Assembly (NCBI GenBank): GCA_018268935.1
Contig: JAFDVS010000057.1
Coordinates: 62,001-126,000, forward strand
Length of the DNA: 64,000 nt
Reading direction: 5' to 3'
Source of the DNA: Acidobacteriota bacterium
Lineage (GTDB): Bacteria > Acidobacteriota > Terriglobia > Bryobacterales > Bryobacteraceae
The position numbers were made by a program, and so were the translations under genes. Under the pieces are notes generated by a model. It did no database searches, was not told the DNA's origin, and saw only the letters and a program-made list of their open reading frames with translations. The first letter of the stretch is position 1. Every line of letters begins with the position of its first letter. Positions 67 to 57,441 of the stretch are shown piece by piece.

Positions 67-2148
67 ATGAGAATCATCCTTCCCATCCTGCTTGCCGCCA
101 GCGTTGCCTTCGCCGCACCGCAGGCGGGCGGCACGAAAAAAGCTCCCGCTAACGCCCAGCAGCGCGATCTCAAATACGAAGTCGACGAATCCATCGATCC
201 TCCGGCCACCGGAAAAGTCAGTGTCCCGCGCAGCTACGCCGTCGTCATCGGCGTACAGAATTACCCCAAGCTCGATGCCAAGCTCCAACTCAAGTACACA
301 GAGCGTGACGCGGAATCGGTCTACAGCATTCTGATCAGCCGCGAAGGCGGCAACTTCCGCGCCGAAAACGTCCACAAACTCACCGGCGCCAAAGCCACGC
401 TCGCCAACATTCGCAACGAAATCGAAAACTGGCTGCCGTCTGTTGCGAAAGACGATGACCGCGTGCTCATCTACTTCGCCGGCCACGGCTTCGTGTACAA
501 CGGCAAAGTTTTCCTTGCGCCCACCGACTTCGACAAAGCCAACCCCACCGGCACCGGTTATTCCGTCGAAGCCCTCGGCGCAGCCTTCGGCTCCAAGATC
601 AAGGGCAAGTGGAAGGTGCTGCTCACCGACGCCTGCCACAGCGGCGCCGTCACTTCGGAAACGGATGTGCGCACCATCAACAGCCGCCTCCTCGATCTGA
701 ACCGTTCGTTGTTCTCGCTCACCGCCAGCCGCGACCGCGAGCAGTCTTTCGAAAGCCCTGAATGGGGCGGCGGCCACGGCATCTTCACTTACTACGTGGT
801 GAAGGGCATGGAAGGCGAAGCCGACGAATCGCACGACGGCATCGTCACCGCCGACGAGTTATCGAACTACGTCCAGCGCAACGTGCGCGAAGCCTCCGGC
901 GGCCGCCAGAATCCCACCCTCGGCGGAAGCTTCGATAACAACATGCTCCTCGCCTACATCCCGGCCGGAGCCAAACTCGGCGATCCGCCCAAAGCGAAGT
1001 TCGGCACCTTCATCTTCGAATCGAACATGGACAACGTAGAGGTGTTCGTCGATGGCAAATCCGTCGGTGTCGTCAGCAAGGGCACTCCGCTTCGCCTGCC
1101 TGGCATCAACCCCGGTGTGCACCAGATCAAAGGCGTCCGCATGGGTTATGAGCCCGATGGCCCCAAGGAAGAAATCGTCTATCCCGGCCAGGACACCACC
1201 ATCACCCTCAAGATGCTGATCCCGCGCCGCAGGCCCAAAGCGGCCCTCGACAAGTTCGACCCCGCTGTAGAGCGTTATCAAAAAGCACGCGGCCCGGAGC
1301 AGTATCGCCGGGCCGTTGCCGATTTTCAGGAGATCGTCGGCATCGATCCCACCTACAGCCAAGCCTACCTCTACCTCGCCCGCGCGCAGCGTGATCTGCA
1401 GGATTTCGAAAAGGCCGAAAAATCCTTCAAAAAAGCCCTCGAAATCGACCCCGACTACCTCGAAGCCCGTACCACCTACGGCGGTATGCTCTTTGACACC
1501 GGCAACACCGACGAAGCCATCCGCCAGTTGAACGCCGTCATTCAGCGCGACAAGAACCAGGCCACCGCGCACTACCTGCTGTCGCAAGCCTTCCGCGTGA
1601 AGGAACAATACAAGCTCGCCATCGAATCCGCGCAGAACGCCGTACGCCTTACGCCCAACAATTCCGAAGCCTACTTCTGGCTTGCCGAAGGCCTGCGCAT
1701 GGAGAAGCGTTACTCAGAAGCCATCCCCGCCTATCAGCAATACCTCAAGCTCAGCAACTTCGACAGCAACGGCTTTGAAAAATTCGGCTACTACGCCATC
1801 GGTTTCGGCCTCTTCAAGAAGAAACGCGCCGGTACGCAGGATGTGTGGAAGGAACTCCGCGGCCTCACCTATTTCGGGCTCTGCGAATGCGAGCGCCGCA
1901 TCAACCACTTCGACAACGCTATTTCCTACTGCCAACGCGCTCTCAGCTTCGATAAGGAAGATCCCCTCACCCACTACAGCCTGGCGCTATCCTACTTCCG
2001 TCAAGGCGCAGCCACCGGCGATGTCGGCTTGCTGCCCGCCGCTCGCAAACATTTCAACACCATGCTCGCCATCAACCCCGATCTCGAAGAATCGAACATC
2101 GCCAAGCAGAACATCGCCAACATCGACAAGTTCCTCAGCGCCCAGTAA
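67..2148 (+). CDS. Secreted caspase-family (peptidase C14-like) protein with PEGA and TPR repeats
   Basis: This is a 693-residue protein with an N-terminal signal peptide (about residues 1-17). A caspase-like domain (about 55-295) follows, with the His in FAGHG (H140) and the Cys in DACHSG (C190), the classical His-Cys dyad. A PEGA-like beta domain (about 312-385) comes next, with the pattern VEVFVDGKSVG. TPR repeats fill about 400-690, with A-Y-L-Y-L-A and DPDYLEAR type helices. Metacaspase-like peptidases usually cleave after basic or acidic residues; no substrate can be read here. The PEGA and TPR parts suggest envelope location and protein docking. ATG 67 follows a GGAG at 57-60. The 3' end overlaps the convergent gene by 14 bases. 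Bacterial caspase-TPR proteins are known in signalling and conflict contexts, but no partner gene is visible inside the window. Confidence 0.85.
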   Translation: MRIILPILLAASVAFAAPQAGGTKKAPANAQQRDLKYEVDESIDPPATGKVSVPRSYAVVIGVQNYPKLDAKLQLKYTERDAESVYSILISREGGNFRAENVHKLTGAKATLANIRNEIENWLPSVAKDDDRVLIYFAGHGFVYNGKVFLAPTDFDKANPTGTGYSVEALGAAFGSKIKGKWKVLLTDACHSGAVTSETDVRTINSRLLDLNRSLFSLTASRDREQSFESPEWGGGHGIFTYYVVKGMEGEADESHDGIVTADELSNYVQRNVREASGGRQNPTLGGSFDNNMLLAYIPAGAKLGDPPKAKFGTFIFESNMDNVEVFVDGKSVGVVSKGTPLRLPGINPGVHQIKGVRMGYEPDGPKEEIVYPGQDTTITLKMLIPRRRPKAALDKFDPAVERYQKARGPEQYRRAVADFQEIVGIDPTYSQAYLYLARAQRDLQDFEKAEKSFKKALEIDPDYLEARTTYGGMLFDTGNTDEAIRQLNAVIQRDKNQATAHYLLSQAFRVKEQYKLAIESAQNAVRLTPNNSEAYFWLAEGLRMEKRYSEAIPAYQQYLKLSNFDSNGFEKFGYYAIGFGLFKKKRAGTQDVWKELRGLTYFGLCECERRINHFDNAISYCQRALSFDKEDPLTHYSLALSYFRQGAATGDVGLLPAARKHFNTMLAINPDLEESNIAKQNIANIDKFLSAQ

Positions 2149-27632: not shown

Positions 27633-27706
27633 AAATGTGGCTCCAGCCGCAGTATGAGGCTCAAAGCCCTAAAGGGCAATCAGTGCTTTCCCCGATGCCC
27701 TGCCGG

Positions 27707-28204
27707 CTACTCCTCAAAAATCGCCGCCAGCGGCACCGTCAACTCCCCGGCCCGCATCACTCCATCCTTCGCTTCCACACTTCCCTGAGCAGTGTACACA
27801 AATCCCCGGCGTGTCTCCGGGTCAACCACCCAAACATACGGCACCCCGAACTCCAGGTAGTCGTCAATTCGTTGCTGCATGCTGCTCATCCGGTCTTCCG
27901 GCGACAGCACCTCCACAACAGCAAGTGGCGGCTCCACGAAGATCCTGGTCCCCGGCTTCCCGCCTTTGACGATAGTCACATCTGGAACACGAAGCCGGTT
28001 CCGCATCACCTGCATCCGCACTTCCACTACCGCCCAATAGCCTTTGCATTGATTGCGCACATAGCTCGCACAGCAGAGCTGGGCGTCACCATGATCCATC
28101 TCTCCCACGTTGCGCTCCACCAGCCGTCCCTCGACGTAGTCACAATCCGGTTCATAGATTGTGCGCAGGTATTCCTCCGCAGGAATGAGGGTCGAGACTG
28201 CCAT
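27707..28204 (-). CDS. Uma2-family (DUF820) putative endonuclease
   Basis: This 165-residue protein carries the PD-(D/E)xK-like core of the Uma2 family: YEPDCDYVEGRLVER, RVPDVTIV and LAVVEVLSPEDR. Uma2 proteins are common in cyanobacteria and acidobacteria; their biological target is not established. It lies 19 bases downstream of the cupin gene on the same strand. Confidence 0.82.
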   Translation of the reverse strand: MAVSTLIPAEEYLRTIYEPDCDYVEGRLVERNVGEMDHGDAQLCCASYVRNQCKGYWAVVEVRMQVMRNRLRVPDVTIVKGGKPGTRIFVEPPLAVVEVLSPEDRMSSMQQRIDDYLEFGVPYVWVVDPETRRGFVYTAQGSVEAKDGVMRAGELTVPLAAIFEE

Positions 28205-28223
28205 GCCTTCAGCCTAACTCTCC

Positions 28224-28568
28224 CTACCGCAAATACGCGTCATCCCCCCGCAGCCAATCCTCCCGCACCGGAGCAAACACGTCATACACCACCGCATCTT
28301 CCACCACCGTCACCTTGTGCGGCACATTCGGCGGCACCACAATCGACTCCCCGGCCCCCACCGTCAATTCCCGCCCCTGCATATGGAACACGATCGTCCC
28401 TTCCAGCACATTCGCGATCTGTTCGTTCACGTGATGATGCTCCGGCACCACCGCGCCTTTCTTCAATTCCAGCCGCGCAATCGTAATATTCTGTCCGTGC
28501 AGCACCTGCCGCACCACATGGGGATTCATCTGCTCCCGGTCAGCTTCCTTCCAACGTTGGACCGCCAT
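28224..28568 (-). CDS. Cupin-domain protein
   Basis: The 114-residue single-domain cupin has the metal-binding pattern PEHHHVNEQ (the HxH and Glu motif) and a second motif VPPNVPHKV. These give the three His/Glu ligands of a typical small cupin. A role in sugar or phenolic metabolism is possible, but the substrate is unknown. ATG 28568 overlaps the divergent region of the epimerase gene start. Confidence 0.8.
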   Translation of the reverse strand: MAVQRWKEADREQMNPHVVRQVLHGQNITIARLELKKGAVVPEHHHVNEQIANVLEGTIVFHMQGRELTVGAGESIVVPPNVPHKVTVVEDAVVYDVFAPVREDWLRGDDAYLR

Positions 28569-31866: not shown

Positions 31867-33681
31867 ATGCTCTCCAACCTCCTACTCCTAATCGCCCTTT
31901 CACCTGCCCAAGACCACATCCTCGAATCCAACGTCGCCATCCCCATGCGTGACGGCACCGCCCTCGCCACCGACCTCTACTTCCCCGCCGCCAACGGCGA
32001 AAAAAAGCCCGGCAAGTTCCCCGTCATCCTCAGCCGCACCCCCTACAACAAAGCCAACTCCGAAGGCCGCATGTACGCCGCCAAAGGCTACGTCTTCATC
32101 AATCAGGACACGCGTGGGCGATACGCCAGCGAGGGCCGCTGGGACTTCCTCAACATCGACGTCAACGACGGCTATGACACCGCCGCCTGGATCGTCAAAC
32201 AACCCTGGTCCTCCGGCAAAATCGGAACCATAGGAACTTCCTATGTCGGCGGCACCCAGCATGCCATCGCCCTATCGAACGCCCCCGGCCTCGCCGCCGT
32301 AATCCCCGTTGACGCCGTCGCCAACGCGGGCTATTTCGGCATGCGCAACTCCGGCGCCTTCGAACTCCGCTTCTTCAACTGGATCTTCACCATCGGAGCA
32401 CCCAAAGGCAGTGCCGCCGTCCGCGATCCTGGCTCCAAAGCCGCCCTCGAAGAACTCGCCGCCAACACCCGCCAATATCTCCTCAACCTCCCGCTCCGCA
32501 AAGGAACCACACCCCTCAAACTCGCCCCCGAATACGAAGACTGGCTCATCCAGGCCATGACGCGTTCCGACAACGACGCCTATTGGAAACAACCCGGCTT
32601 CAACGTCGTCGATCAAGTCGCCAACTACAAAGATGTCCCCGCCTACATCGTCGGCGGCTGGTATGACTCCTGGGGCCGCTCCACCACCATGACTTTCGAA
32701 GCCCTTCGCAACACCAAGAAGAGCGCGGTCCAACTCATCATGGGCCCCTGGATCCACGGCCAGCAAACCCGCCACGCCCACGGCCAGGTCGACTTCGGCG
32801 AAGCCGCTGCCCTCAAACCCGAATGGCGTCTCCGCTGGTACGATCGCTGGCTCAAGAACGAGCCCAACGGAGCCGAAAACGACGCCCCCGTCCGCATCTT
32901 CGTCATGGGCACTGGCCCCGGCACCAAAAACTCCGCGGGCCAACTCCAACACGGCGGCCAGTGGCGCGACGAACGCGAATGGCCTCTCGCCCGCACCAAA
33001 CAAACGCCATACTACATCCACTCCAATGGCACTCTCACCCCCGAACCCGCCGGCCTCAACGAAACACCCACCTCCTACACCTTCGATCCCAACAACCCCA
33101 TCCCCACCATCGGCGGCAACATCTCTTCCGGCGACGGCATCCTCCTCCAGGGAGCCTGGGATCAAAAATGCGGCAAGCACGTCTGGAACTGCACCGATCA
33201 ACTCCCGCTCTCCGCCCGCCGCGACATCCTCGTCTTCCAAACCCCGCCGCTTGAAAAGGACACCGAAATTACCGGCCCCATCGACGTCAAACTCCACGTC
33301 TCTTCAGACTCCACCGACACCGACTTCACCGCCAAACTCATCGATGTCTATCCCCCATCGAAGGACTACCCCGCCGGCTTCGACCTCAACATCGCCGACG
33401 GCATCCAGCGCGCCCGCTACCGCGACTCCCTCGAACACGCCTCCCTCATGGAGCCCAATAAAATCTACGAGATCACCGTCCGCATGTACCCGACCTCGAA
33501 CGTCTTCAAGAAAGGGCACCGCATTCGTGTCGATCTAAGCTCCTCCAATTTTCCCCGCTTCGATATCAACCCCAACACCGGCGAACCCCTGGCCCGTCAC
33601 CGCCGCACGCGCGTTGCCACCAACACCATCCATCACGACCAGCAGCACCAGTCGCACATCCTCTTACCTGTAATCCCGTAG
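31867..33681 (+). CDS. CocE/NonD-type alpha/beta hydrolase, with re-created 3' end
   Basis: This is a 604-residue secreted hydrolase of the S15/CocE group with a signal peptide (about 1-14). The nucleophile is in GTIGTSYVGGTQ (S125), and the second part has a beta-rich C-terminal domain. Enzymes of this family hydrolyse peptides or esters, for example X-Pro peptides or cocaine. Its final 106 codons (33361-33681) are duplicated, with only synonymous changes, beyond the adjoining insertion. The gene is intact and may be a hybrid of native and incoming alleles. Confidence 0.85.
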   Translation: MLSNLLLLIALSPAQDHILESNVAIPMRDGTALATDLYFPAANGEKKPGKFPVILSRTPYNKANSEGRMYAAKGYVFINQDTRGRYASEGRWDFLNIDVNDGYDTAAWIVKQPWSSGKIGTIGTSYVGGTQHAIALSNAPGLAAVIPVDAVANAGYFGMRNSGAFELRFFNWIFTIGAPKGSAAVRDPGSKAALEELAANTRQYLLNLPLRKGTTPLKLAPEYEDWLIQAMTRSDNDAYWKQPGFNVVDQVANYKDVPAYIVGGWYDSWGRSTTMTFEALRNTKKSAVQLIMGPWIHGQQTRHAHGQVDFGEAAALKPEWRLRWYDRWLKNEPNGAENDAPVRIFVMGTGPGTKNSAGQLQHGGQWRDEREWPLARTKQTPYYIHSNGTLTPEPAGLNETPTSYTFDPNNPIPTIGGNISSGDGILLQGAWDQKCGKHVWNCTDQLPLSARRDILVFQTPPLEKDTEITGPIDVKLHVSSDSTDTDFTAKLIDVYPPSKDYPAGFDLNIADGIQRARYRDSLEHASLMEPNKIYEITVRMYPTSNVFKKGHRIRVDLSSSNFPRFDINPNTGEPLARHRRTRVATNTIHHDQQHQSHILLPVIP

Positions 33682-33682
33682 C
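33359..33682. repeat. 324-bp direct repeat, left copy (CocE gene 3' end)
   Basis: The last 324 bases of the CocE/NonD gene recur at 38956-39279. The offset is constant (5597) with no indels. I count ten substitutions, all in third codon positions, so the encoded 106 residues are identical. The repeats bound the island described below. Confidence 0.95.
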
Positions 33683-33764
33683 TGGGCTGATTTAACTAGC
33701 TTCACTATGACTAGATGATCTGATGAACAGTCGAATCACCCAACATGACGCAACAACTCTCGAC

Positions 33765-35486
33765 TCACGCACCTAGCGCAGAACTTGCTTTTTTTCTATA
33801 GATAAGCCCCTCGCACGACTCCTCAACCAACACATTTTCTGGTGCTGTGCGGAGTTTGCCATCAATGTATACTTGTCCCGAATCCATACCAACGACAAGC
33901 CCTACGTCAGCTGGCAATAACCTCACTTTCTCCAATGAGAGAGCACTCTCTAACACCTCAATCGTTTCACGAACGAGACTACTGGAGTCAAATTCGGAAA
34001 CCAATCCGACAGGTGCACCATCAGGAAACGCATTGGCGATTTGAGTCGCCGACGCATGTTCCAACCCCCATTCGGAAACCAGAACGAGCAGCGGTTCCGC
34101 ACCGTCCAAGTAGGCGCGCCTGGCATGATCCACATACTTCAAAAGTGCGGTCAGCCCTGGCAGGTAGAGATGCTTTCCCGTTCCCTCCTTGAACTGGGAG
34201 CAACCGATGTGCAGCACTGCAACCTTCAAATCAGGTCTTGCTAAGGCCGCTCGGATACCGTTGAACAATGACGCATTCGGCCCGTTTTCTCTCGGATCGT
34301 ACTCCGTATCCCCAAGCAGTAGCGTAGTTGCTCGGGTATGAAACTGACCATGATGGTCCATGACCTGAGAGTCAGCGAGAATACCGAAGGTCCCCTCTGC
34401 ATTCCCCGCATCAAAGTGAGATGTCGGTATCGGATGAGCAACCACGCGCCGCCTTGAATCTGAGGCTTCATACGGCGCAATCACGTCAACGTGGTTATGA
34501 GCGATCTCTCTAACATTCGTGTAGGCTCCGCGGTAGGTATCCAAAACGGCTTGAACGCTCTTGCTGCAGAAGATCGACGTGGAGTCGCCTAGCACGTGAC
34601 GCCCAGCAATAAATTCGAATATCCCACCGATGTGGTCGGGGTGGTTGTGTGTCACAATGCAAGTTTTCAAAATGCCGAGCGGGACCCCCAGGGTCCGAAG
34701 CACACCGATGGACCGGAAACCCGGGTCAATCAGCACTCCAGGCGGTGAACCGGATTTCGTGTTTGCTCCAATAATTGCATATGCCCCACCAGCTACATTG
34801 TAGAAACTCGGGTACCAGGAATTCCATCGCCGCCCGACGACCAGCAGAGGCTCATCCGCCGCAATTGGCATCCTCACCTGTGCTTGGCTCTTGAAGTGAG
34901 CTTGCAATGCGGCATCACGGCGTTTCGTTTTGTCGCTGATTGACTCTATCCTTCGGATGGGCTGAACTCGGTGCAATACCCCAATGTCGTTCTCCGCCCG
35001 TCTTCGGTAAAGATAGCCTCGGCGGTCTCCATAGTCAATAGCGTACACGTTTAGCGTCTCACTGTATTGAAGTGCTGGATCCGCCAACATGCCGGGAGCA
35101 TTCTCCAAAGCAGCTTCGTTCCCGCCTCCGATCGCCGCAACAACGGCCGCCAACAATTGTGAGTTGACCGGCTTGGGCAACAGTCCATGAATCTTGTGTT
35201 CCACGAATCGCCGCCACGCCTCTTCGTTGACATTCGCACTAACAACTAGCACTGGCGGCGCATCTACACCGCTATTTCGCAGTCGGTCCAGAACACTGAA
35301 CCCATGCATATCCCCAAGTCTCAGATCAAGGACTATCATGGCATAGCGCACCTCCGAAAGGAGAAACTTCAGAGCCTCCGCGCCATCCCTTGCTTCGACC
35401 ACAATCCAGCCATCGTGCCGTAACGCATTTGCGTAGTCTTCTCTCTGGATCTGCTCATCCTCGACCAGCAGCAGCCTTTGGTTCAC
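33765..35486 (-). CDS. Response-regulator receiver fused to metallo-beta-lactamase (MBL) fold hydrolase
   Basis: The 573-residue protein has an N-terminal receiver (about 1-120) with acidic pocket E9/D10, acceptor Asp in VLDLRLGD (D54), Ser83 and Lys105. A linker (about 120-225) follows. An MBL domain (about 230-560) has H280-x-H282-x-D284-H285 (THNHPDHIGG), then H357 and D393 in LLLGDTEYD and H426. Phosphorylation by the upstream kinase would be expected to switch the enzyme, since no DNA-binding domain is present. The MBL substrate is unknown; nucleic acid or nucleotides are possible. The start is GTG at 35486, overlapping the kinase TAG by one base after a GGAGAGGAG site. Confidence 0.85.
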   Translation of the reverse strand: MNQRLLLVEDEQIQREDYANALRHDGWIVVEARDGAEALKFLLSEVRYAMIVLDLRLGDMHGFSVLDRLRNSGVDAPPVLVVSANVNEEAWRRFVEHKIHGLLPKPVNSQLLAAVVAAIGGGNEAALENAPGMLADPALQYSETLNVYAIDYGDRRGYLYRRRAENDIGVLHRVQPIRRIESISDKTKRRDAALQAHFKSQAQVRMPIAADEPLLVVGRRWNSWYPSFYNVAGGAYAIIGANTKSGSPPGVLIDPGFRSIGVLRTLGVPLGILKTCIVTHNHPDHIGGIFEFIAGRHVLGDSTSIFCSKSVQAVLDTYRGAYTNVREIAHNHVDVIAPYEASDSRRRVVAHPIPTSHFDAGNAEGTFGILADSQVMDHHGQFHTRATTLLLGDTEYDPRENGPNASLFNGIRAALARPDLKVAVLHIGCSQFKEGTGKHLYLPGLTALLKYVDHARRAYLDGAEPLLVLVSEWGLEHASATQIANAFPDGAPVGLVSEFDSSSLVRETIEVLESALSLEKVRLLPADVGLVVGMDSGQVYIDGKLRTAPENVLVEESCEGLIYRKKASSALGA

Positions 35487-38400
35487 TAATGACTCCTCTC
35501 CGCCACAATTGGCAGCCTCACTTTGAATGTCGCACCACCAATCTCATTTTTCGGATCAACGAAAATTCGGCCTTTCATGCGACGAACAATCCTCTGCACC
35601 CAAAAAAGGCCTATTCCCATGTTTCGAAGGCCCTTCGTCGTGAAATACGGAAGAAAGATACGGTCTAGGTCGTCCGTCGATATCCCTGGGCCGCTGTCCC
35701 TCACGATGAGATCAAAATGATGCTCGTCCGGGCATGACACTTCGATCTCAATTCTCCTGCTCGACTTAGTCGCATCCAGAGACTCCACAGCATCCATCGC
35801 ATTCCTCAACAGATTGACGACAATGGACTGGATCAGGCTGGAGTCGCTGTTAACGCTTGGCACGGCACCGAAACAAGCTGACAGGAACACCCCATGATCA
35901 CTCGCACGTCGCCCGGAAAGGCCAATAAGGTCGTCGATCAGTTTGTGAAGATCCGTCGGCTCATCAACCCCGCCCCTATCCCGAAAACTCGTAAACATGT
36001 CGATGGTCCGGACCGCATGGTCTACTTCGGACCGTAGAAGGTCTAGCTCGGTATACGGCTGTTCGCACGCAAATTGTCTCCGCATTCTCTTTTCCAAAAT
36101 TATAATATTTGTAAGTGAATTCAGAAACTCGTGAGAGATGCCGGAAGCCAGGTATCCCAAATCAGCTGCTTTGATCAGCGAAGCATAGAAGGCTGTCTCG
36201 TGAAGCTGTGCGATCTCGATTGCTACTCCTGCATGGCTAGCTAGTATCCCAAGCGTCCGCTGAACAGTCTCATCAAACCGGAGCACCCTCTGCGAATTTA
36301 TAAACATAACCCCAACAATGCTATTTTGGCGCGTGAGTGGAATCGCGGCAAAGGACTTAATCCCAAGTTTGATTGAAGCATCGCGCACCGTGGGGATGCC
36401 ATTTGGCACCTTTAGCACATCGTTCAGATACAAAGGCTGCCGAATCTTCAGCACATAGCGCCCGGTGCCCCCGGAACTCCGAGGGGAGACAGACAGCTCC
36501 TTCGCTAGAGGACCGTAGGCATGGCATTCTCCAAACGAGTCGGTTTCCTCATTGTAAAGGTTAATTGTCGGAGATACCTCCTCACCAAGGATTGCTCGAA
36601 TGCCCTTGCCAATACTATCTAGAGCCGCATTCTGATCAAGATCCTGAACCACCAAATGTTGCATCACTTCTTCCAGTGCAGCGTGAGTCTTGAGTTGCTG
36701 GTGGAGGCTATCCATCAACTTCGCCTTCCCTATCGCTATGGCGGCCTGATTCGCAAGTGTCAAGAGGAGAGAAACTTCCGTGTCCGTAAAATCATGCGGT
36801 CCCTTATTGTTGAGATATAGCACGCCACTTACGCGCTCGCCGGTCTTCAAGGGAATCGCGATCATGGCTCGAAATAACACCTTAAGGTCCGGGTTTGCAC
36901 GGCCATCTTTCTGGATATCCGCCATGCGAATCACATCCCCAGTCCGAATCACGGTTCGTGTAATCCCGTTTTCAAGATGTAGCCTTGGCGGCGGGTGATC
37001 GAAATCGGCAGTTCGAAAAACGTCCACCACTGATCGTCCGTCTTCGCTAATTAGATAGATGATTCCCGCCGTAGTGTTCGTCAACCGGATGGCCCCTAGT
37101 GCGACTTCCCGTAACACGTCCTGCACACTTGCTGAATCTATGATGCGCTCGGCGATGTCCTGCAACAAAGTCACCGCGATCGAGCGCTGCATCGCGAAGC
37201 CAGCCTGTTGCGCAAGCGCGTCAACAAGCCGCCGGTCACTCTCGGTAAACCAATCAGGTGCATCTTGATCCGCGCTAACTACGCCGAGGGTGTGATGCCC
37301 GACACGAATCGGCGCCACCAACATTGAGCGTTCCGTGGAGCGCGGCTTTCTCGCCGGCGCAAACTGCGCTTCCTTTTCAGCCGAAGGTGAAACCAGGGAA
37401 AGTCCTGTCGTGAACACCATGCCAGCAAGCCCTTCGTCAGTTCTAAATCGTCTAGTCAACGTTGTACCGCTGGCCCCGTGAGCAACCCGCGGAACTAGAA
37501 AAGTCTCGCCGTCCTCTTCTACCGGAAGAAAAATCGTACAGTGCGAACAACCAAGATTCTCCGCAACTTGATCAACTATCGCGCGAAGCAGTTCGTCCGT
37601 ATCCAACTTAGCGCCGATGTGCTTTACCACTTCGTTGACAATCTCCATGTCTCGGATAAGCCGTTGCGCGCTGTTCCACAGCCTGGCATGCCAAATCTGC
37701 GGAGCGACCCTGGCGCCGAATGCTACAAGTGCGGGCCGCAATTCCGCCTTGTAATAGTGCGCTGTCTCGTGGTCTGCAGTCAGTAATCCGATCACCGTGC
37801 CGTCGTGGACAATTGGCAGACAAATCCACGAGCGGACTGAAAACGTGGAAGGGTGTGACGTCCAATCCTGGTCATCGTGGGTATCGCTCAAAATTAGCGG
37901 TTCTCTACTTTCAACGACTCTCCGTACCAACGGATCGCGAGAGCATGGGCGCAACAGCCCTCGATCTGAGGAATCGGAATCAAAGCCGAAACCCGCTAAT
38001 AGGGTCCGAATGTCGCCTCGCACCAACTGCAGCGAAGCACTCCTACACGGTGCGATCTCACGCCACTCCGTCAGTATCTGCTGAGCCGTAGCACTCGATC
38101 CCAGAGCAAACTTCACCTCATCCTCGATCTCCGACTTGGTTGCCGCTTCTCGTTGTAGTCTGGCAATCGTCTCATGGAGGCCGCTCTCTTCCCTCTCCTT
38201 GTCCAACCAACGTGAGATGTAACTGGAAATGTGGTTGGCGATGTTGTACAGAACCCTGGCCGCCGCTTCGATCTGCGTGGCGCGCATTCGAGGCATCTCC
38301 GCCCAAGCCTTCAGATACTCACCTCTGTCAATCCCAAGTGATGTTGCATGAAGCTCATGCCAGCACTGCGGCACGTCAGTGAGTTCTCCGTCCCTGATTC

Positions 38401-38872
38401 GATCATCAAGCACCTTGAAGCTTTTAATTTCGACGTCTGGCCTGGCCCGATCACGATTTTCCTCGCCGCGATCCAGGTCAACCCGCAGCTGCCCCCCGAA
38501 GAGATAGCCCAAAATGCGGCCATTGAACATGATCGGCGAAACGAAGTCAACCAACCCATGCGCACAAGTGTAAACCTGGTACTGCTGGTTCTGCGCGGCC
38601 ACCCCCCCCCACGTTCTGTCGCATTCAGCACAGATCGACCGACCGACGTGTGTACCCTTGATAAGGTCCATACAGAGTCGATTGAAGGGAGGTGTCTGCC
38701 TAGTAACCGGGCATCCGTCCGCGTCCATTATGACAAGACTAATCCCAGTAAGGGCGGAAAAATCATCGAGCAACCCTTGAAGCGATCCTAACTGGGAGAA
38801 TTCCTGCCAATGCAGTTTCTCAATCGCATCATTCATGTGCCTATCTTGAAGGTGAATGGGCATCCATTTCAC
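35486..38872 (-). CDS. PocR-GAF multi-sensor histidine kinase
   Basis: This 1128-residue soluble kinase has a PocR-type ligand-binding domain at the N-terminus (about 15-175, with Cys-rich SICAECDRTWGG and YTCAHGL). Several GAF domains follow (about 245-900, probably four), then a dimerisation helix with the phospho-accepting His in SHEF (about H914) and an HATPase domain: N box LLRNAMDAVES, RDSGPGIS and FTTKGLRNMGIGLFW. It probably senses a small molecule or redox state in the cytoplasm and phosphorylates the adjacent REC-MBL protein. The start is GTG 38872 with an AGGA box; in-frame ATG codons at 38863 and 38839 are alternatives. Confidence 0.88.
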   Translation of the reverse strand: MKWMPIHLQDRHMNDAIEKLHWQEFSQLGSLQGLLDDFSALTGISLVIMDADGCPVTRQTPPFNRLCMDLIKGTHVGRSICAECDRTWGGVAAQNQQYQVYTCAHGLVDFVSPIMFNGRILGYLFGGQLRVDLDRGEENRDRARPDVEIKSFKVLDDRIRDGELTDVPQCWHELHATSLGIDRGEYLKAWAEMPRMRATQIEAAARVLYNIANHISSYISRWLDKEREESGLHETIARLQREAATKSEIEDEVKFALGSSATAQQILTEWREIAPCRSASLQLVRGDIRTLLAGFGFDSDSSDRGLLRPCSRDPLVRRVVESREPLILSDTHDDQDWTSHPSTFSVRSWICLPIVHDGTVIGLLTADHETAHYYKAELRPALVAFGARVAPQIWHARLWNSAQRLIRDMEIVNEVVKHIGAKLDTDELLRAIVDQVAENLGCSHCTIFLPVEEDGETFLVPRVAHGASGTTLTRRFRTDEGLAGMVFTTGLSLVSPSAEKEAQFAPARKPRSTERSMLVAPIRVGHHTLGVVSADQDAPDWFTESDRRLVDALAQQAGFAMQRSIAVTLLQDIAERIIDSASVQDVLREVALGAIRLTNTTAGIIYLISEDGRSVVDVFRTADFDHPPPRLHLENGITRTVIRTGDVIRMADIQKDGRANPDLKVLFRAMIAIPLKTGERVSGVLYLNNKGPHDFTDTEVSLLLTLANQAAIAIGKAKLMDSLHQQLKTHAALEEVMQHLVVQDLDQNAALDSIGKGIRAILGEEVSPTINLYNEETDSFGECHAYGPLAKELSVSPRSSGGTGRYVLKIRQPLYLNDVLKVPNGIPTVRDASIKLGIKSFAAIPLTRQNSIVGVMFINSQRVLRFDETVQRTLGILASHAGVAIEIAQLHETAFYASLIKAADLGYLASGISHEFLNSLTNIIILEKRMRRQFACEQPYTELDLLRSEVDHAVRTIDMFTSFRDRGGVDEPTDLHKLIDDLIGLSGRRASDHGVFLSACFGAVPSVNSDSSLIQSIVVNLLRNAMDAVESLDATKSSRRIEIEVSCPDEHHFDLIVRDSGPGISTDDLDRIFLPYFTTKGLRNMGIGLFWVQRIVRRMKGRIFVDPKNEIGGATFKVRLPIVAERSH
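38602..38610 (-). repeat. G9 homopolymer inside the kinase gene
   Basis: Nine consecutive C's on the plus strand (nine G's on the coding strand) encode part of TWGG around residue 88, inside the PocR domain. The frame is open through the run in this sequence. Such tracts are prone to slippage and to sequencing error. Confidence 0.85.
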
Positions 38873-38882
38873 CTCTTATTCC

Positions 38883-38912
38883 TCTCGGGCTCTAATATAT
38901 CATTCTTTCAGC
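38883..38912 (-). promoter_or_regulatory. Possible promoter of the kinase/REC-MBL operon
   Basis: On the minus strand an AT-rich stretch (GATATATTAG) lies just upstream of the kinase start, with a GTGACA about 18 bases before a TGATAT. The match to a sigma-70 promoter is modest. It would lie wholly inside the island. Confidence 0.3.
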
Positions 38913-38933
38913 GGGTGGACTGTCACTTCTCCA

Positions 38934-39278
38934 ATGGTTACGAAAAAGCAGTCTGCGAAGGACTACCCCGCCGGCTTCGACCTCAACATCGCCGACGGCA
39001 TCCAGCGTGCCCGCTACCGCGACTCCCTCGAACACGCCTCCCTCATGGAGCCCAACAAAATCTACGAAATCACCGTCCGCATGTACCCCACCTCGAACGT
39101 CTTCAAGAAAGGGCACCGCATTCGTGTCGATCTAAGCTCCTCCAATTTTCCCCGCTTCGACATCAACCCCAATACCGGCGAACCCCTCGCCCGCCATCGC
39201 CGTACGCGCGTTGCCACCAACACCATCCATCACGACCAGCAGCACCAGTCGCACATCCTCTTACCTGTAATCCCGTAG
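38934..39278 (+). pseudogene. Detached 3' fragment of the CocE/NonD gene
   Basis: An open frame from ATG 38934 (or 38856) runs into a sequence encoding residues 499-604 of the CocE/NonD protein and ends at the same stop. Only 106 of 604 residues remain, so it cannot form the enzyme. Its exact protein identity with the left copy shows recent duplication or transfer. Confidence 0.8.
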
Positions 39279-39279
39279 C
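38956..39279. repeat. 324-bp direct repeat, right copy
   Basis: This is the partner of 33359-33682. The shared sequence begins with CGAAGGACTACC and ends one base after the stop codon; beyond these points the two sequences differ at once. Confidence 0.95.
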
Positions 39280-44828: not shown

Positions 44829-46169
44829 TTACGACAAGCTCAATTCCGCCAATTGGCCGGTCGAATCGCCAATATGCGTCGCGTTCACGCCCATCCGCTG
44901 CGCCATCGTCGCAAACAGATTCGTAATCGGCGTCTCGCGCTGATAAATCACGTGCCGCCCCGGCGTGAAGAAGTTCCCGCCGCGCCCAGCCAGAATCGTC
45001 GGCAGCTCATCATGCAGATGCTGATCCCCATCCGAAAGCCCGCTGCCATACACAATCATCGAATTGTCCAGCAGGTTCGAATCGCCTTCCCGATGCTCCT
45101 TCAGCTTCTGCAAGAACCCTGCGAAAAGCTTCACATGATATGTATTAATCGCTGAAATCTTATCCAGCAGCACCGGATTCATCTGGTGATGCGTAATCGG
45201 ATGGTGGCTGTCCGGTATCCCAATCTCCGGATACGGCCGGTTCGATCCCTCACGCCCGATCATCACCGTCGACACCCGCGTCACATCCGCCTGGAATGCG
45301 ATCAACAGCATGTCCGTCATCAACCCGAAGTAATCCCCAAATTCCGCCGGCACGCCAAACGGCTTCTCCATCCCCGGAGTAATCACCGTCCCATCCTTCT
45401 CCGCCTTCTGTACCTGCTGTTCCACTTGCCGCACCGATGTCAGATACTCATCCAGCTTCCGCCGGTCCACAGCGCCCAAATCGCGTTGCACCGTCTGCGC
45501 CGATTCCAGCACCGTATCCAGAATGCTCCGCCGCATCGCCAGCCGCCGCGCGCGCTCCTCCGGTGAAGAAAACACATCCGCCCCGAACAGCCGTTCAAAC
45601 AAGCCGCGCGGATCGGACACCGGAGGCAGAGGTTGGCTCGGCGTCTTCCACGCCATGTTGTACGCATACGCGCACGAATACCCGTTGTCGCAATTGCCCG
45701 CCTGCCGCGTCTCCTCCAACCCGATCTCGAGCGATGGCAGCCGCGTCTCTTTCCCCACCACACCCGCAATAATCTGATCCGCCGACACACCCAGCTTCAG
45801 GTTATTCACCGACTGGTGCACGAAGCTCCCGGTCATGTACGCCGCCAGCGCGCGTCCGTGATCCCCGGCGCCCACCAGCAGCGGCCGTCCCCAATTCGCC
45901 GTCAAATTTGAAAGCAATAAAACATCGTTCTTCAGCGGCTCCAGCGGCGACAAAATCGGAGGCAATTTCCCCAGCGGCCCATCATCCGGCATCACCCAGT
46001 TCCGCATGTCAATCCCGTTCGGCACATAGAACCACGCCACCCGCCGCGGCGCAGCCTTCACCGCCGCCATTGCCGGCGACATCGCATCCAGCATCGGCAG
46101 CGCAACCGCCGCGCCCAGCCCCCGCAACATCGTGCGGCGGTCCAGTGCTTTCCTCGTGATCATCCTCAT
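44829..46169 (-). CDS. DUF1552 protein with Tat leader
   Basis: The 446-residue protein begins with a twin-arginine leader (DRRTMLRGLGAAVALPML), so it is exported folded. The remainder matches the DUF1552 family (RRVAWFYVPNGIDMRNWVM and the C-terminal GGNFFTPGRHVIYQRETPITNLF). Members occur next to the DUF1592-type cytochromes in planctomycetes and acidobacteria. Function is not established. The start ATGA overlaps the end of that cytochrome gene. Confidence 0.88.
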   Translation of the reverse strand: MRMITRKALDRRTMLRGLGAAVALPMLDAMSPAMAAVKAAPRRVAWFYVPNGIDMRNWVMPDDGPLGKLPPILSPLEPLKNDVLLLSNLTANWGRPLLVGAGDHGRALAAYMTGSFVHQSVNNLKLGVSADQIIAGVVGKETRLPSLEIGLEETRQAGNCDNGYSCAYAYNMAWKTPSQPLPPVSDPRGLFERLFGADVFSSPEERARRLAMRRSILDTVLESAQTVQRDLGAVDRRKLDEYLTSVRQVEQQVQKAEKDGTVITPGMEKPFGVPAEFGDYFGLMTDMLLIAFQADVTRVSTVMIGREGSNRPYPEIGIPDSHHPITHHQMNPVLLDKISAINTYHVKLFAGFLQKLKEHREGDSNLLDNSMIVYGSGLSDGDQHLHDELPTILAGRGGNFFTPGRHVIYQRETPITNLFATMAQRMGVNATHIGDSTGQLAELSLS

Positions 46170-48466
46170 TTGGCAGCCACCTCCGGCGGATTTCTCAATT
46201 GCCCTCTGCGAGCCTGGAACGGCAGACTATGCACAATCTCGTGCACCAGCGTCTGGAACCGGTACCCGGATTGTTCCATCTTACTCACAATATCCCGCAC
46301 CACCAACCGGTCATACGATTCCAAACCCCGTCCCAGCGCATACGTCAGCATCTTCTCCGTCAAATTGCGCGTGAAATCGGGCAGGTCTTTCATCAGCAAT
46401 TCCTTCAATTGCACCGGTGTCGTAAATTCCGCCCCATTCGGCAGCGTGCCGCCCACCTGAATCGGAAGCTTGTTCTCCTCGGTTCTCCAACGTCCCACCG
46501 GATCGTAGTTCTCCAACCCAAATCCCAACGGATCCATCCGGCTATGACACGACGCGCAAATCGGATCCGTCCGGTGCTTCTCCAGCGCCGCCCGCAACGA
46601 CGCAGGCGCAGTAGCCTCGTCCTCCTTCAATCCCGGCACATCCGCCGGCGGAGGAGGCGGCGGCGATCCCAACACCACATCCAATATGTATTTCCCTCGC
46701 AGCACCGGCGACGTGCGCACCGGATAGCTGGTCACCGTCAGCACACTCGCATGGCTCAATATCCCGCCACGCTGCGACGCATCCACCGTCACCCGGCGAA
46801 AATCCGGCCCATCCACATCCTCAATCCCGTAGTGCCGCGCCAGCCGCGAATTCAAAAACGTATAGTCCGCGTTCAGAAACTCCGACACAGGACGGTTCTC
46901 CCGCAGAATATGGTCGAAGAACAGCTTCGTCTCCGTCACCATATCCTCGCCCAACGCCGCATTCCACATCGGAAACTTCAGTGCATCCGGCTTCACACCC
47001 GCAATGCCCCGCGTCTCCAGCCATTGCCCCGCGAAATTCTCCGCCAGCGCCGCCGATTTTTTATCCGCCAACATGCGCACCACCTGCCGGTCCAACACGC
47101 CCGGCTTCCGCAGTTGATTCGTCTCCGCCAGTGCCAGCAACTCCTCATCCGGCGCCGAACTCCACAAAAAGAAGCTCAGCCGCGTCGCCAGTTCAAGCTC
47201 AGACACATTCCCGTATTGCCCCCGCGGATCGCGCTCCACCCGAAACAGAAAATGCGGAGACACCAGCATCGCCTGTATGGCGTACTGCACACATTGATCC
47301 GGAGCAAACCCCGCCTCCCGAGCCTTCCGTGCCACCCCCACCAATTGCGCTACTTCAGCCTCCGTCACCGGACGCCGGTACGCCCGCCGCGCCAGCGGCT
47401 TCACAATCTTCGCAATGCACCCATCGCCTGTCCCCGGATCACACTTCAGTATGCGATCCCGCAGCGGCTGTTCCCCCTTCGCCGCAAACGGCCCCAGCAA
47501 ATCGAACTTCTCCGGATAAATCGTATTCGGACCCGGAGCAAACCCACCCGCCGGGCGCCGCAACGGCCGTGGAACCGGCTTGCGAAAATCGTCGCCCACC
47601 AATTCCGCCCGCAGCGTATGCTCCCCCGCCGCCAGATAAACACGAACCTCGCGATGGACCCGCTGCGCATCCTTCGCCACGCTACTCGTCTCGTTCTCCG
47701 CCGATGGCACCTCCACCGTCTGCACCGGCTTGCCATCCACCAGCATCCGCAGCGTCACCGGCTTTCCATCCGGCCCCAGATGCCCTCTGATCCACGCCCG
47801 GAACACATACTCCCCGCTGTAATCCACATACTCCACCACATCCGTCGCACCCGAATCGATCCGCCGCACGCGGTCCGCCTTCTGTTCCACAAACGCCGGC
47901 TTCGGCAGCGGGTCCGCACCCACGGCCAGCGATGCGATGCGCTCCGCCGCATACACATACTTCTCCATCAACAGCGGAGACACAGTCAGTACATCGCCGA
48001 TATTATCGAACCCCAGCACCGAATCATCGGGCGGAAATTCCTGCCCGGCACGAAAGCGCACACCCAATAGATCCCGCACCGTATTCGCATACTCCGCCCG
48101 GTTCAGCCTGCGCGCCACAATCCGCCCCGGATCACGAGACTTCGCCCGCTCCACCCGGTCAATCTCTTTCCTTACAAAATCGAGCATCGCCTGCGTCTGC
48201 GCCTCGGAAGGCCGTGGCAACCCCTTTGGCGGCATCTCCCCCGATCGCACCTTGCTGATGATCCGTTCCCACGCATCGCGATTCGCCCCAATCGACTCGC
48301 GCCCCGTGAACCCCTCCACACTCAAGTTCCCCGAAGCATTCTTGTTGTTGTGGCACAGCGAGCAGTTCTGCCGCAGCACCGGCTGCACGGCGTTAGCGAA
48401 CCCAGCGTCCTGCGCATGCGCCGCAGTCACCCACAAAGCGAACACAACACCGGCTCCCGATGGCAT
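46166..48466 (-). CDS. DUF1592/DUF1588/DUF1587-type secreted c-type cytochrome
   Basis: The 766-residue protein has a signal peptide (about 1-18) and two c-heme sites. One is CSLCHNN (about residues 34-40) near the N-terminus and the other is CASCHSRMDPLG near the C-terminus. Between these lie the PSD-type blocks LNRAEYANTVRDLLG, RLSRFLWSSAPDEELL-like and HYGIEDVDG. It likely takes part in electron transfer with the DUF1552 protein. ATG 48466 follows a GAGGGAG site; an ORF extending 48 codons upstream is not coding-like. It is divergent from the cytochrome-ankyrin gene. Confidence 0.88.
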   Translation of the reverse strand: MPSGAGVVFALWVTAAHAQDAGFANAVQPVLRQNCSLCHNNKNASGNLSVEGFTGRESIGANRDAWERIISKVRSGEMPPKGLPRPSEAQTQAMLDFVRKEIDRVERAKSRDPGRIVARRLNRAEYANTVRDLLGVRFRAGQEFPPDDSVLGFDNIGDVLTVSPLLMEKYVYAAERIASLAVGADPLPKPAFVEQKADRVRRIDSGATDVVEYVDYSGEYVFRAWIRGHLGPDGKPVTLRMLVDGKPVQTVEVPSAENETSSVAKDAQRVHREVRVYLAAGEHTLRAELVGDDFRKPVPRPLRRPAGGFAPGPNTIYPEKFDLLGPFAAKGEQPLRDRILKCDPGTGDGCIAKIVKPLARRAYRRPVTEAEVAQLVGVARKAREAGFAPDQCVQYAIQAMLVSPHFLFRVERDPRGQYGNVSELELATRLSFFLWSSAPDEELLALAETNQLRKPGVLDRQVVRMLADKKSAALAENFAGQWLETRGIAGVKPDALKFPMWNAALGEDMVTETKLFFDHILRENRPVSEFLNADYTFLNSRLARHYGIEDVDGPDFRRVTVDASQRGGILSHASVLTVTSYPVRTSPVLRGKYILDVVLGSPPPPPPADVPGLKEDEATAPASLRAALEKHRTDPICASCHSRMDPLGFGLENYDPVGRWRTEENKLPIQVGGTLPNGAEFTTPVQLKELLMKDLPDFTRNLTEKMLTYALGRGLESYDRLVVRDIVSKMEQSGYRFQTLVHEIVHSLPFQARRGQLRNPPEVAAK

Positions 48467-48533
48467 AGCTCCCTCTCGCTGACGAATCCTTGTATACTGC
48501 CTACACTGTACCTGATTCCTAAGAGGAGGCTGT

Positions 48534-50783
48534 ATGCCCTTCCATTCACTTTTGGTCTTTGCCCTTGCAGCTTCGGCGCAGACGAAGATGCCCGCGCCCG
48601 CCAATTTCAAAGTTGATTTCGAAAAACACGTCCAGCCGATCCTCGCCGCGAAGTGTCATTCCTGCCATGGGTCTGAGGTACAGCAGGGCGGCTTGCGTCT
48701 CGACAAGCGCCAGAACGCATTCCGCGGCGGCGACTATGGCCCGGTGATTCTCCCTGGCAAAGGCGCCGAAAGCAAGCTCGTCAAACGCCTCGTGAATGGC
48801 GACGGCGGTTTGCAGATGCCTCCCACCGGCGCGCTGCCCGAGGACGAAATCGCCATCCTTCGCGCCTGGATTGATCAGGGCGCCGACTTCCGCATCGAAG
48901 TGCAGGAAGAGGCGCCGGCAAAGCCCGTCGATCCGAAATTCCTATCTTTCATCGAGAAGATCCGCACTCAGGATCTCGCCGCCGTCAAGCAGATCCTCGC
49001 CGCGCAGCCGCAATTGATCGATGGCAAAGACAAAGCAGGCTCCACCGCGCTCCATCATGCCGCCGCCTACGGAACGCTGGACACCATGCGCTTCCTGCTC
49101 GACAAGGGCGCCAATCCCAACGCCACCAACAACCGCAAATCCACGCCGCTCTTCTGGGCCCTTCAGGACGAAGCAAAGGTCCGCCTCCTGCTCGACAAAG
49201 GCGCTTCCCTCACCGCGCAAACCTCCGACGGCCGCTCTATGATCTACCAGGCCGCGTCCATTGAACACAGCACCGCGGTGTTGCGCCTGCTGCTCGAAAG
49301 AGGCGCCAACCCGAACGCGAAAACGCTCACTGGCATGACTCCGCTCATGGCCGCCGCCACCCGAGCCAACCTCGACGCCATGCGCGTCCTCATCGCCAAG
49401 GGCGCCGACGTCAAAGCAAAGAACGCCGCCGGAGCAACCGCATTGATGGCCGCCGCCGCCACCGGCGACACCACCGCCGTGCGCCTGCTATTGGAGAGTG
49501 GGGCCGAAATCAATCCCCGCACCAAGCGCAATGAAACCGCACTCGCCAACGCAGCCACCACCGGCAATGCCGAAATCGTCAAAATGCTCCTCGATGGCGG
49601 CGCCGAAGTGAATGTTGCCGATATCCGCGGCTACACGGCAATCCACTACGCCGCCGGCTCCGATGCCATGCCCGCCCAAGTTGTGAAGATGCTCCTCGAC
49701 AAAGGAGCCGATGTCACCGGCAAAGCCGATGGCGAAACCCCAGCCATGCTCGCCGCCAAGCGCGGTGACTCCGAAGTGGCCCGCCTCCTGGGCGTCTCCG
49801 CGTCCACCCGCGCTCGCCTGGGCGTCGTCGCGCCTCCACGCACACCCCTGCCCGCCCGCTCCCTCGCCGACACCGTCCGCCCCGCCCTTGCTCTCCTCGA
49901 AAAGCAGAGCCACAACTTCATCCGCATCGGTGGATGCAACTCCTGTCACGCCCAGGATCTGCCCTCCACGGCCGCAGCCATCGCGCGTGAACGCGGCTTG
50001 CCCTCACCCAAATCCATCGCCCAACTCCCGCTCCACATGCACGCCACCAACACGGAGCGCATGATGGATCTCAACGCCGTATCCACAACCACCCTCGGCT
50101 GGGAATTGTACGATCTCCATGCCAACCGCCAGCCCGCCGACGAATACACCGATTCCCTCGTCCGCTTCATCCGCCTCATGCAGACGCCCGCCGGCAATTG
50201 GACCTCGTTCGAAAGCCGCCGCCCGCCCATGAACACCGGCATGTACCAGACCGCGGCCCTCGCCATCTACGGCCTCCAGAATTACGGCCGCCCGCAGGAG
50301 CGTGAAGAGAACAGGAAAGCGATCGCCCGCGCAGCCGCATGGCTCGAACGAGCCAAGCCCGCAACGACCCAGGACCGCGCATTCCATCTCCTCGGCCTCG
50401 CCTGGGCCGGCGCACCCACCACCACAATCGCCGCGGCAGCGAAAGCCTTAGCAGCAACCCAGCGCGAAGATGGCGGCTGGAGCCAGTTGTCCACCATGGG
50501 TTCCGACGCCTACGCCTCGGGCCAAGCCCTATTCGCACTCAACGCCGCCGGAAGAATGGCCATCTCCGATCCCATCTTCCGCAAAGGCATCGACTACCTG
50601 CTTCGCACACAACACGCCGACGGCTCCTGGCAAGTCGCCACCCGTTCCATCTGGGTCCAGCCCTATTTCGAAAGCGGCTTCCCCCACGGCCACAACCAGT
50701 GGATCTCCACCGCCGGAACCAGCTGGGCCGTAATGGCCCTTTCCCTAACGCAACCACAAGCAGTGACACGTCTCAACGAATAA
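48534..50783 (+). CDS. Cytochrome c-ankyrin-toroid fusion protein
   Basis: The 749-residue secreted protein has a signal peptide (about 1-16) and a Planctomycete-type cytochrome domain with CHSCH (residues 41-45) and MPP followed by RAWIDQGADF. Ankyrin repeats (about 160-420) carry the DKAGSTALHHAA, GMTPLMAAA and GYTAIHYAA units. A second heme site CNSCH is at 468-472. The C-terminal alpha-toroid resembles squalene cyclase/prenyltransferase domains (GLQNYGRPQ, DGGWSQ, DGSWQV). The ATG 48534 has an AGAGGAGG site. Its role is unknown; protein docking plus electron transfer is inferred. Confidence 0.85.
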   Translation: MPFHSLLVFALAASAQTKMPAPANFKVDFEKHVQPILAAKCHSCHGSEVQQGGLRLDKRQNAFRGGDYGPVILPGKGAESKLVKRLVNGDGGLQMPPTGALPEDEIAILRAWIDQGADFRIEVQEEAPAKPVDPKFLSFIEKIRTQDLAAVKQILAAQPQLIDGKDKAGSTALHHAAAYGTLDTMRFLLDKGANPNATNNRKSTPLFWALQDEAKVRLLLDKGASLTAQTSDGRSMIYQAASIEHSTAVLRLLLERGANPNAKTLTGMTPLMAAATRANLDAMRVLIAKGADVKAKNAAGATALMAAAATGDTTAVRLLLESGAEINPRTKRNETALANAATTGNAEIVKMLLDGGAEVNVADIRGYTAIHYAAGSDAMPAQVVKMLLDKGADVTGKADGETPAMLAAKRGDSEVARLLGVSASTRARLGVVAPPRTPLPARSLADTVRPALALLEKQSHNFIRIGGCNSCHAQDLPSTAAAIARERGLPSPKSIAQLPLHMHATNTERMMDLNAVSTTTLGWELYDLHANRQPADEYTDSLVRFIRLMQTPAGNWTSFESRRPPMNTGMYQTAALAIYGLQNYGRPQEREENRKAIARAAAWLERAKPATTQDRAFHLLGLAWAGAPTTTIAAAAKALAATQREDGGWSQLSTMGSDAYASGQALFALNAAGRMAISDPIFRKGIDYLLRTQHADGSWQVATRSIWVQPYFESGFPHGHNQWISTAGTSWAVMALSLTQPQAVTRLNE

Positions 50784-52146: not shown

Positions 52147-57441
<5,295 letters not shown>

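Follow-up and report, generated by a model that had tools for sequence, protein, structure and literature searches.

A PocR-GAF histidine kinase and a receiver-metallo-beta-lactamase regulator inserted between long direct repeats in a soil Acidobacteriota genome

We describe a pair of adjoining genes for a sensor histidine kinase and a response regulator whose receiver is joined to a metallo-beta-lactamase (MBL) domain. The parts are known, and their combination is new and rare. The pair was found in a window of 64,000 nucleotides, the whole stretch of DNA analysed here, from the draft genome of a soil Acidobacteriota (169 contigs, completeness 87%, contamination 4.5%). Both genes lie in an inserted foreign segment of 5273 bp (33683..38955), present as a single copy in the genome. 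On balance, we lean towards the reading that the pair is an acquired, self-contained two-component switch with a zinc phosphodiesterase-type hydrolase as its output, working like PorX.

The kinase, its regulator and their relatives

The kinase gene (35486..38872, minus strand, 1128 aa) is located upstream of the regulator gene (33765..35486, minus strand, 573 aa). Both ORFs are complete, and the kinase stop and the regulator start overlap by one base (TAGTG). The kinase may start a few codons later than in the ORF list, as the first Met of its orthologue (see below) aligns with Met13, at about position 38836.

In the kinase, Pfam recognises a PocR ligand domain near the N-terminus (about residues 28-140, E 4e-35), four GAF stretches, the strongest at E 2e-62, and a HATPase_c domain (residues 1010-1122, E 1e-18). 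His914 lies in an H-box, HEFLNS, whose HEF is also kept in the orthologue, and the N, G1, F and G2 boxes are all present. The protein thus combines the H-box and the ATP-binding domain that characterise histidine kinases of two-component systems. Within the PocR domain, cysteines in the motifs RLCMD, C-x2-CD and YTC-x-HG (kinase residues 65-106; window 38555-38680, minus strand) are common to both kinases and possibly form a metal or redox site.

The regulator starts with a receiver (residues 1-118; Pfam Response_reg, E 8e-19), the pocket of which, E9, D10, D54, S83 and K105, includes the phospho-acceptor and is identical in the two regulators known. A linker of ~90 residues (about residues 120-210) leads to the MBL domain (about residues 214-573), matched by Lactamase_B_2 (4.5e-6) and Lactamase_B (4.6e-5), both at the curated Pfam cut-offs. 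The signature of the MBL superfamily, HxHxDH with H, D and H downstream, is complete: all seven ligand positions are occupied (H280, H282, D284, H285, H357, D393 and H439, with HNHPDH at 280-285) and are invariant in both regulators. No DNA-binding domain was detected in the pair by Pfam.

An earlier reading of this DNA, made from its sequence only, had proposed a PocR-GAF kinase with its His at about 914 and, overlapping it by one base, a D54 receiver fused to an MBL domain with HxHxDH at 280-285 and lacking a DNA-binding domain, the two forming a complete phosphorelay that would switch an enzyme directly. The Pfam matches and the residues listed above agree with this anatomy, both proteins have their catalytic residues and the architecture of a direct enzyme output is supported. 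Phosphotransfer from kinase to regulator is suggested by the one-base overlap and the conserved pairing.

A peptide-pattern scan of 84,980 species returned one full-length relative of the regulator, at locus L003 of an Acidobacteria MAG (G436), with 42% identity (43% by alignment). In addition to the ligands and key receiver residues, the blocks RRWNSWYPS, SEWGLEH and LLPADVGL are identical between the two regulators. The kinase orthologue of G436 (54% identity) is split over two contigs, its C-terminus being encoded directly upstream of the regulator gene. Since the two genes are paired again in G436, with ligands and receiver residues identical, kinase and regulator constitute a conserved though rare unit. 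Downstream of the G436 regulator gene there is a 137-aa ORF (L003 2398-2811, plus strand) that has no Pfam or PADLOC match and is absent from the window; it is possibly a third component in G436.

With the window and G436, the regulator family has two known members. A whole-protein search of 40 close relatives, whose listing was swamped by receiver domains, gave no full-length homologue, and a protein search did not retrieve the regulator from 396 genomes of the phylum. Profile searches found no further relatives in overlapping draws of 396, 250 and 200 Acidobacteriota genomes, of which the first two contain G436, the relative already known. The regulator was not found in plasmids, phages or IMG/VR viral contigs, and the kinase N-terminus was found in its own genome only among 396 genomes and not in IMG/VR. 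Other phyla were covered by the single peptide-pattern scan, and diverged relatives are possible there. Six weak matches have a similarity that lies around the MBL motif; the proteins inspected are ordinary RNase Z-like or similar MBLs and were hence rejected as family members. A literature search returned no description of a receiver-MBL regulator.

The MBL domain and its possible substrates

The nearest sequence neighbour of the MBL domain is Apyc1 (PDB profile, E 1e-6), a nuclease of cyclic nucleotides with an MBL fold, and hhalign points to RNase Z-like MBLs (95.7%), these profile matches covering the first half of the domain only. The Apyc1 family (PF23023) scores 22 bits over 44 residues, below its curated cut-off of 50 bits, which leaves the domain outside this family. 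PDEase_II (PF02112) had no match in the same genome at E <= 0.001, and none for the regulator by hmmscan up to E 5. In a MAFFT alignment with PDEase_II proteins, the H-x-H-x-D-H motif and the following H and D are aligned and the last His is misplaced; the hhalign match to PDEase_II is weak.

AlphaFold, supplied with a two-sequence alignment, twice produced poor models (pLDDT 45-48). Fold searches were carried out with the domain-only model (pLDDT 45) and not with the full-length one. A comparison of the predicted MBL structure with known enzymes, as suggested in the sequence-only reading, placed the matches mainly in the RNase Z/PDE1/Apyc1 branch. With this weak model, the best Foldseek match is yeast PDE1 (4ojv, E 1.2e-7), with mostly RNase Z and Apyc1 structures next in rank, while VIA-align matches RNase Z, PDE1, Apyc1, YhfI and AMP- or GMP-bound MBLs at Z 13-15.5, over ~224-266 residues and with rmsd mostly ~4 (for yeast PDE1, Z 13.4, rmsd 4.2 and 266 residues, with a model of pLDDT 45). 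VIA-align also gives good scores to PqqB, PNGM-1 and an arylsulfatase, so that a non-phosphoester substrate is possible and the substrate is not fixed. Because the MBL models are of low confidence, they suggest the fold branch alone. Our best single guess is that the MBL domain would be a two-metal phosphoesterase, belonging to the branch of RNase Z and class II phosphodiesterases.

Apyc1, YhfI, PDE1 and RNase Z have an HxHxDH two-zinc site in common (PMC9117128). The regulator resembles these enzymes by its HxHxDH...H...D...H metal site, and they are its nearest sequence and fold matches. It differs from them by its receiver, by an extra N-terminal block containing RRWNSWYPS and by a C-terminal extension.

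Most response regulators act on DNA or cyclic-di-GMP turnover. In the switch that we favour, the PocR domain and/or the GAFs would bind a cytoplasmic small molecule, the kinase would autophosphorylate on His914, Asp54 of the neighbouring regulator would receive the phosphate, and the phosphorylated receiver would dimerise or free the MBL domain and so switch it. The MBL domain would cleave a phosphoester, possibly a nucleotide second messenger, giving an output that is enzymatic and not transcriptional. Activation of the MBL domain instead of its inhibition is something we infer, as are the phosphoester substrate and the physiological role. If true, a receiver-MBL hydrolase of the phosphodiesterase branch would add a new enzyme class to the direct outputs of two-component systems, after PorX.

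A sense-and-degrade function in metabolic control, where PocR would detect a small organic compound and an MBL of lactonase, thioesterase or sulfatase type would hydrolyse this compound or a related metabolite, is conceivable but somewhat unlikely. The predicted ligands of PocR are simple hydrocarbon derivatives and growth substrates, according to the passage of PMC1592074 that cites Anantharaman and Aravind 2005; an arylsulfatase and PqqB are among the fold matches, and many genes of the window encode hydrolases and oxidoreductases. However, no catabolic, transport or enzyme gene lies in the insert or is common to both loci, and the nearest sequence and fold matches of the MBL domain are mostly phosphodiesterases. 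The sequence-only reading had named two findings that would speak against it, a place in metabolic operons and a lack of conservation of the metal ligands. Neither was seen: the pair lies outside any metabolic operon, and its ligands are kept in the relative.

Gene neighbourhood and the question of defence

The sequence-only reading had also likened the pair to the defence system Detocs (DtcA/DtcB/DtcC). What stands of this likeness is the design, a kinase acting on a receiver-effector enzyme with no transcription factor. Membership does not stand: Detocs comprises three genes, including the stand-alone receiver DtcB, whereas here there are two, with no further receiver ORF in the insert and with the G436 genes also adjoining. 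The best-described Detocs effector is a PNP-type nucleosidase and the effector here is a receiver-fused MBL, Detocs effectors having been compared by description. With two genes, no stand-alone receiver, a different effector and no defence neighbours found, the unit is not Detocs.

A Detocs-like anti-phage function is unlikely. Infection would trigger the kinase, and the phosphorylated receiver would unleash an MBL nuclease or nucleotide hydrolase, stopping the phage or killing the cell. With its two genes, the pair is indeed a compact accessory module whose effector is an enzyme, it is rare and foreign with a long target duplication as reported for restriction-modification genes (PMC1643837, PMC3031569), and MBL effectors are known in AVAST type 1 (Avs1a, named MBL in NCBIfam). 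On the other hand, the sensor is of small-molecule type, a second receiver gene and a PNP effector are missing, and PADLOC gives nothing beyond the MBL motif, with no match for the kinase and motif-level matches for the MBL part (Avs1a and LmuA, E about 0.04). A PADLOC match to SduA was discarded, as it concerns the receiver portion only.

Neither genome has defence neighbours that could be identified. In the window, the pair is accompanied by a LytTR two-component pair, the hydrolase gene at the insertion site, genes for an oxidoreductase and a MatE transporter, and a cytochrome cluster of planctomycete type, and PADLOC found no defence gene among the neighbours tested apart from a match of an ankyrin protein. 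This match, PDC-M72A, is probably due just to the ankyrin repeats of a cytochrome (PSCyt1) and ankyrin-repeat protein (48534-50783, plus strand), encoded beside the DUF1552/DUF1592-type cytochrome cluster (44829-48610). In G436, where the receiver-MBL fusion recurs beside the same type of kinase, the pair lies among lipid-A, folate and heparinase-like genes, namely lpxK/waaA, metF (named from sequence and not by family search), one ORF without family and a heparinase-like gene. The earlier proposal of a defence role thus found no backing. Since PADLOC and the neighbourhood give no support, it is left with architecture and mobility as its arguments.

Two other genes of the window were noted. 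At its left edge, a Caspase-domain (Peptidase_C14) protein is fused to many TPR repeats (67-2148, plus strand), and three tandem copies of ~288 nt (54718-55623) lie inside the gene of a 1764-aa serine/threonine kinase-TPR-PEGA protein (52147-57441).

We consider quite unlikely a portable system of two genes for immunity or stress, where the PocR kinase would directly switch an MBL phosphodiesterase gated by its receiver, and this enzyme would degrade a nucleotide signal or RNA upon infection. If true, effector enzymes triggered by kinases would exist in a second line, independent of Detocs.

Insertion between direct repeats and comparison with known systems

The two-gene unit sits exactly between direct repeats of 324 bp (33359..33682 and 38956..39279, plus strand) which, like its foreign base composition, were absent from the sequence-only reading. 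The repeats correspond to the 3′ end and stop codon of the neighbouring gene for an X-Pro dipeptidyl-peptidase/CocE-type hydrolase (Peptidase_S15 + PepX_C; 31867..33681, plus strand). On the left this gene is intact, and the right copy is a 5′-truncated fragment of it. The two copies have 10 mismatches, every one of them at a third codon position (probability by chance 1.7e-5 under uniform change) and every one synonymous. Since all ten are synonymous third-position differences, the right fragment descends from a working gene; comparison of the copies suggests, most simply, that it is a relative's allele brought in with the insert by recombination. An in-place tandem gene duplication was rejected as the origin of the repeats, the differences being all synonymous though the right copy is incomplete. 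It is very improbable that the duplication is an artefact of the draft assembly, which repeats this long can cause by misleading assemblers, since two separate clean junctions would both need to be wrong, the copies differ at synonymous sites like two real alleles, and one misjoin at the repeat would not set the truncated copy beside the insert.

GC3 of the two genes is 0.56-0.58, whereas 20 genes of the window average 0.76 (sd 0.05), and GC of the insert is mostly 51-56%, versus about 60-63% in its surroundings. No integrase-like ORF was found in the insert. The two-gene unit is foreign DNA, recently and horizontally acquired. Recombination into the 3′ end of the hydrolase gene would have brought the unit in and duplicated 324 bp, without disrupting that gene. 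The G436 pair has a GC3 of 0.76-0.79, matching the local composition of its own genome, so that the window copy probably comes from a third source of lower GC. A candidate second foreign gene is a 283-aa ORF (27635-28486, plus strand) that lies to the left of the insert at a distance of a few kb and has a GC3 of 0.57 and no Pfam or PADLOC match.

Orthologues of cocE are present in relatives; the closest one is split at contig ends, where no empty allele could be read, and the 3′ neighbours show no synteny. In a genome of the same genus (G005), contig ends (C77:1-588 and C254:6753-6903) interrupt the hydrolase orthologue in the 3′ region that is duplicated here, and this gene may also hold a repeat or an insertion.

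Long direct repeats of target DNA on either side of a module are what an insertion with long target duplication leaves behind. Such insertions are known from Helicobacter pylori, frequently with restriction-modification genes (PMC1643837, PMC3031569). The present case is like them in its foreign module, its long direct target repeats and the absence of a visible integrase, and unlike them in carrying a two-component system, in occurring in an Acidobacteriota and in having copies diverged at synonymous sites only. A long target duplication marks gene mobility, not defence as such. That a compact module was captured between long direct repeats suggests that such a switch is able to pass as a whole from one lineage to another, and this makes the idea of a portable signalling effector testable.

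The kinase resembles PocR histidine kinases of Methanosarcina and others in having a PocR sensor in a cytosolic kinase. It is unlike those described in its four GAF stretches and its MBL-type partner, no such partner having been found in the literature searched. The regulator is closest in design to PorX of type IX secretion, which consists of a receiver, a helical linker and a two-zinc phosphodiesterase domain and dimerises on phosphorylation (PMC11320123). In both, a receiver is fused through a linker to an enzyme, a zinc phosphodiesterase in PorX and probably one of this type here. The output is a domain of the alkaline-phosphatase superfamily in PorX and an MBL here, and whereas PorX is conserved in T9SS bacteria, the present regulator belongs to a rare inserted module.
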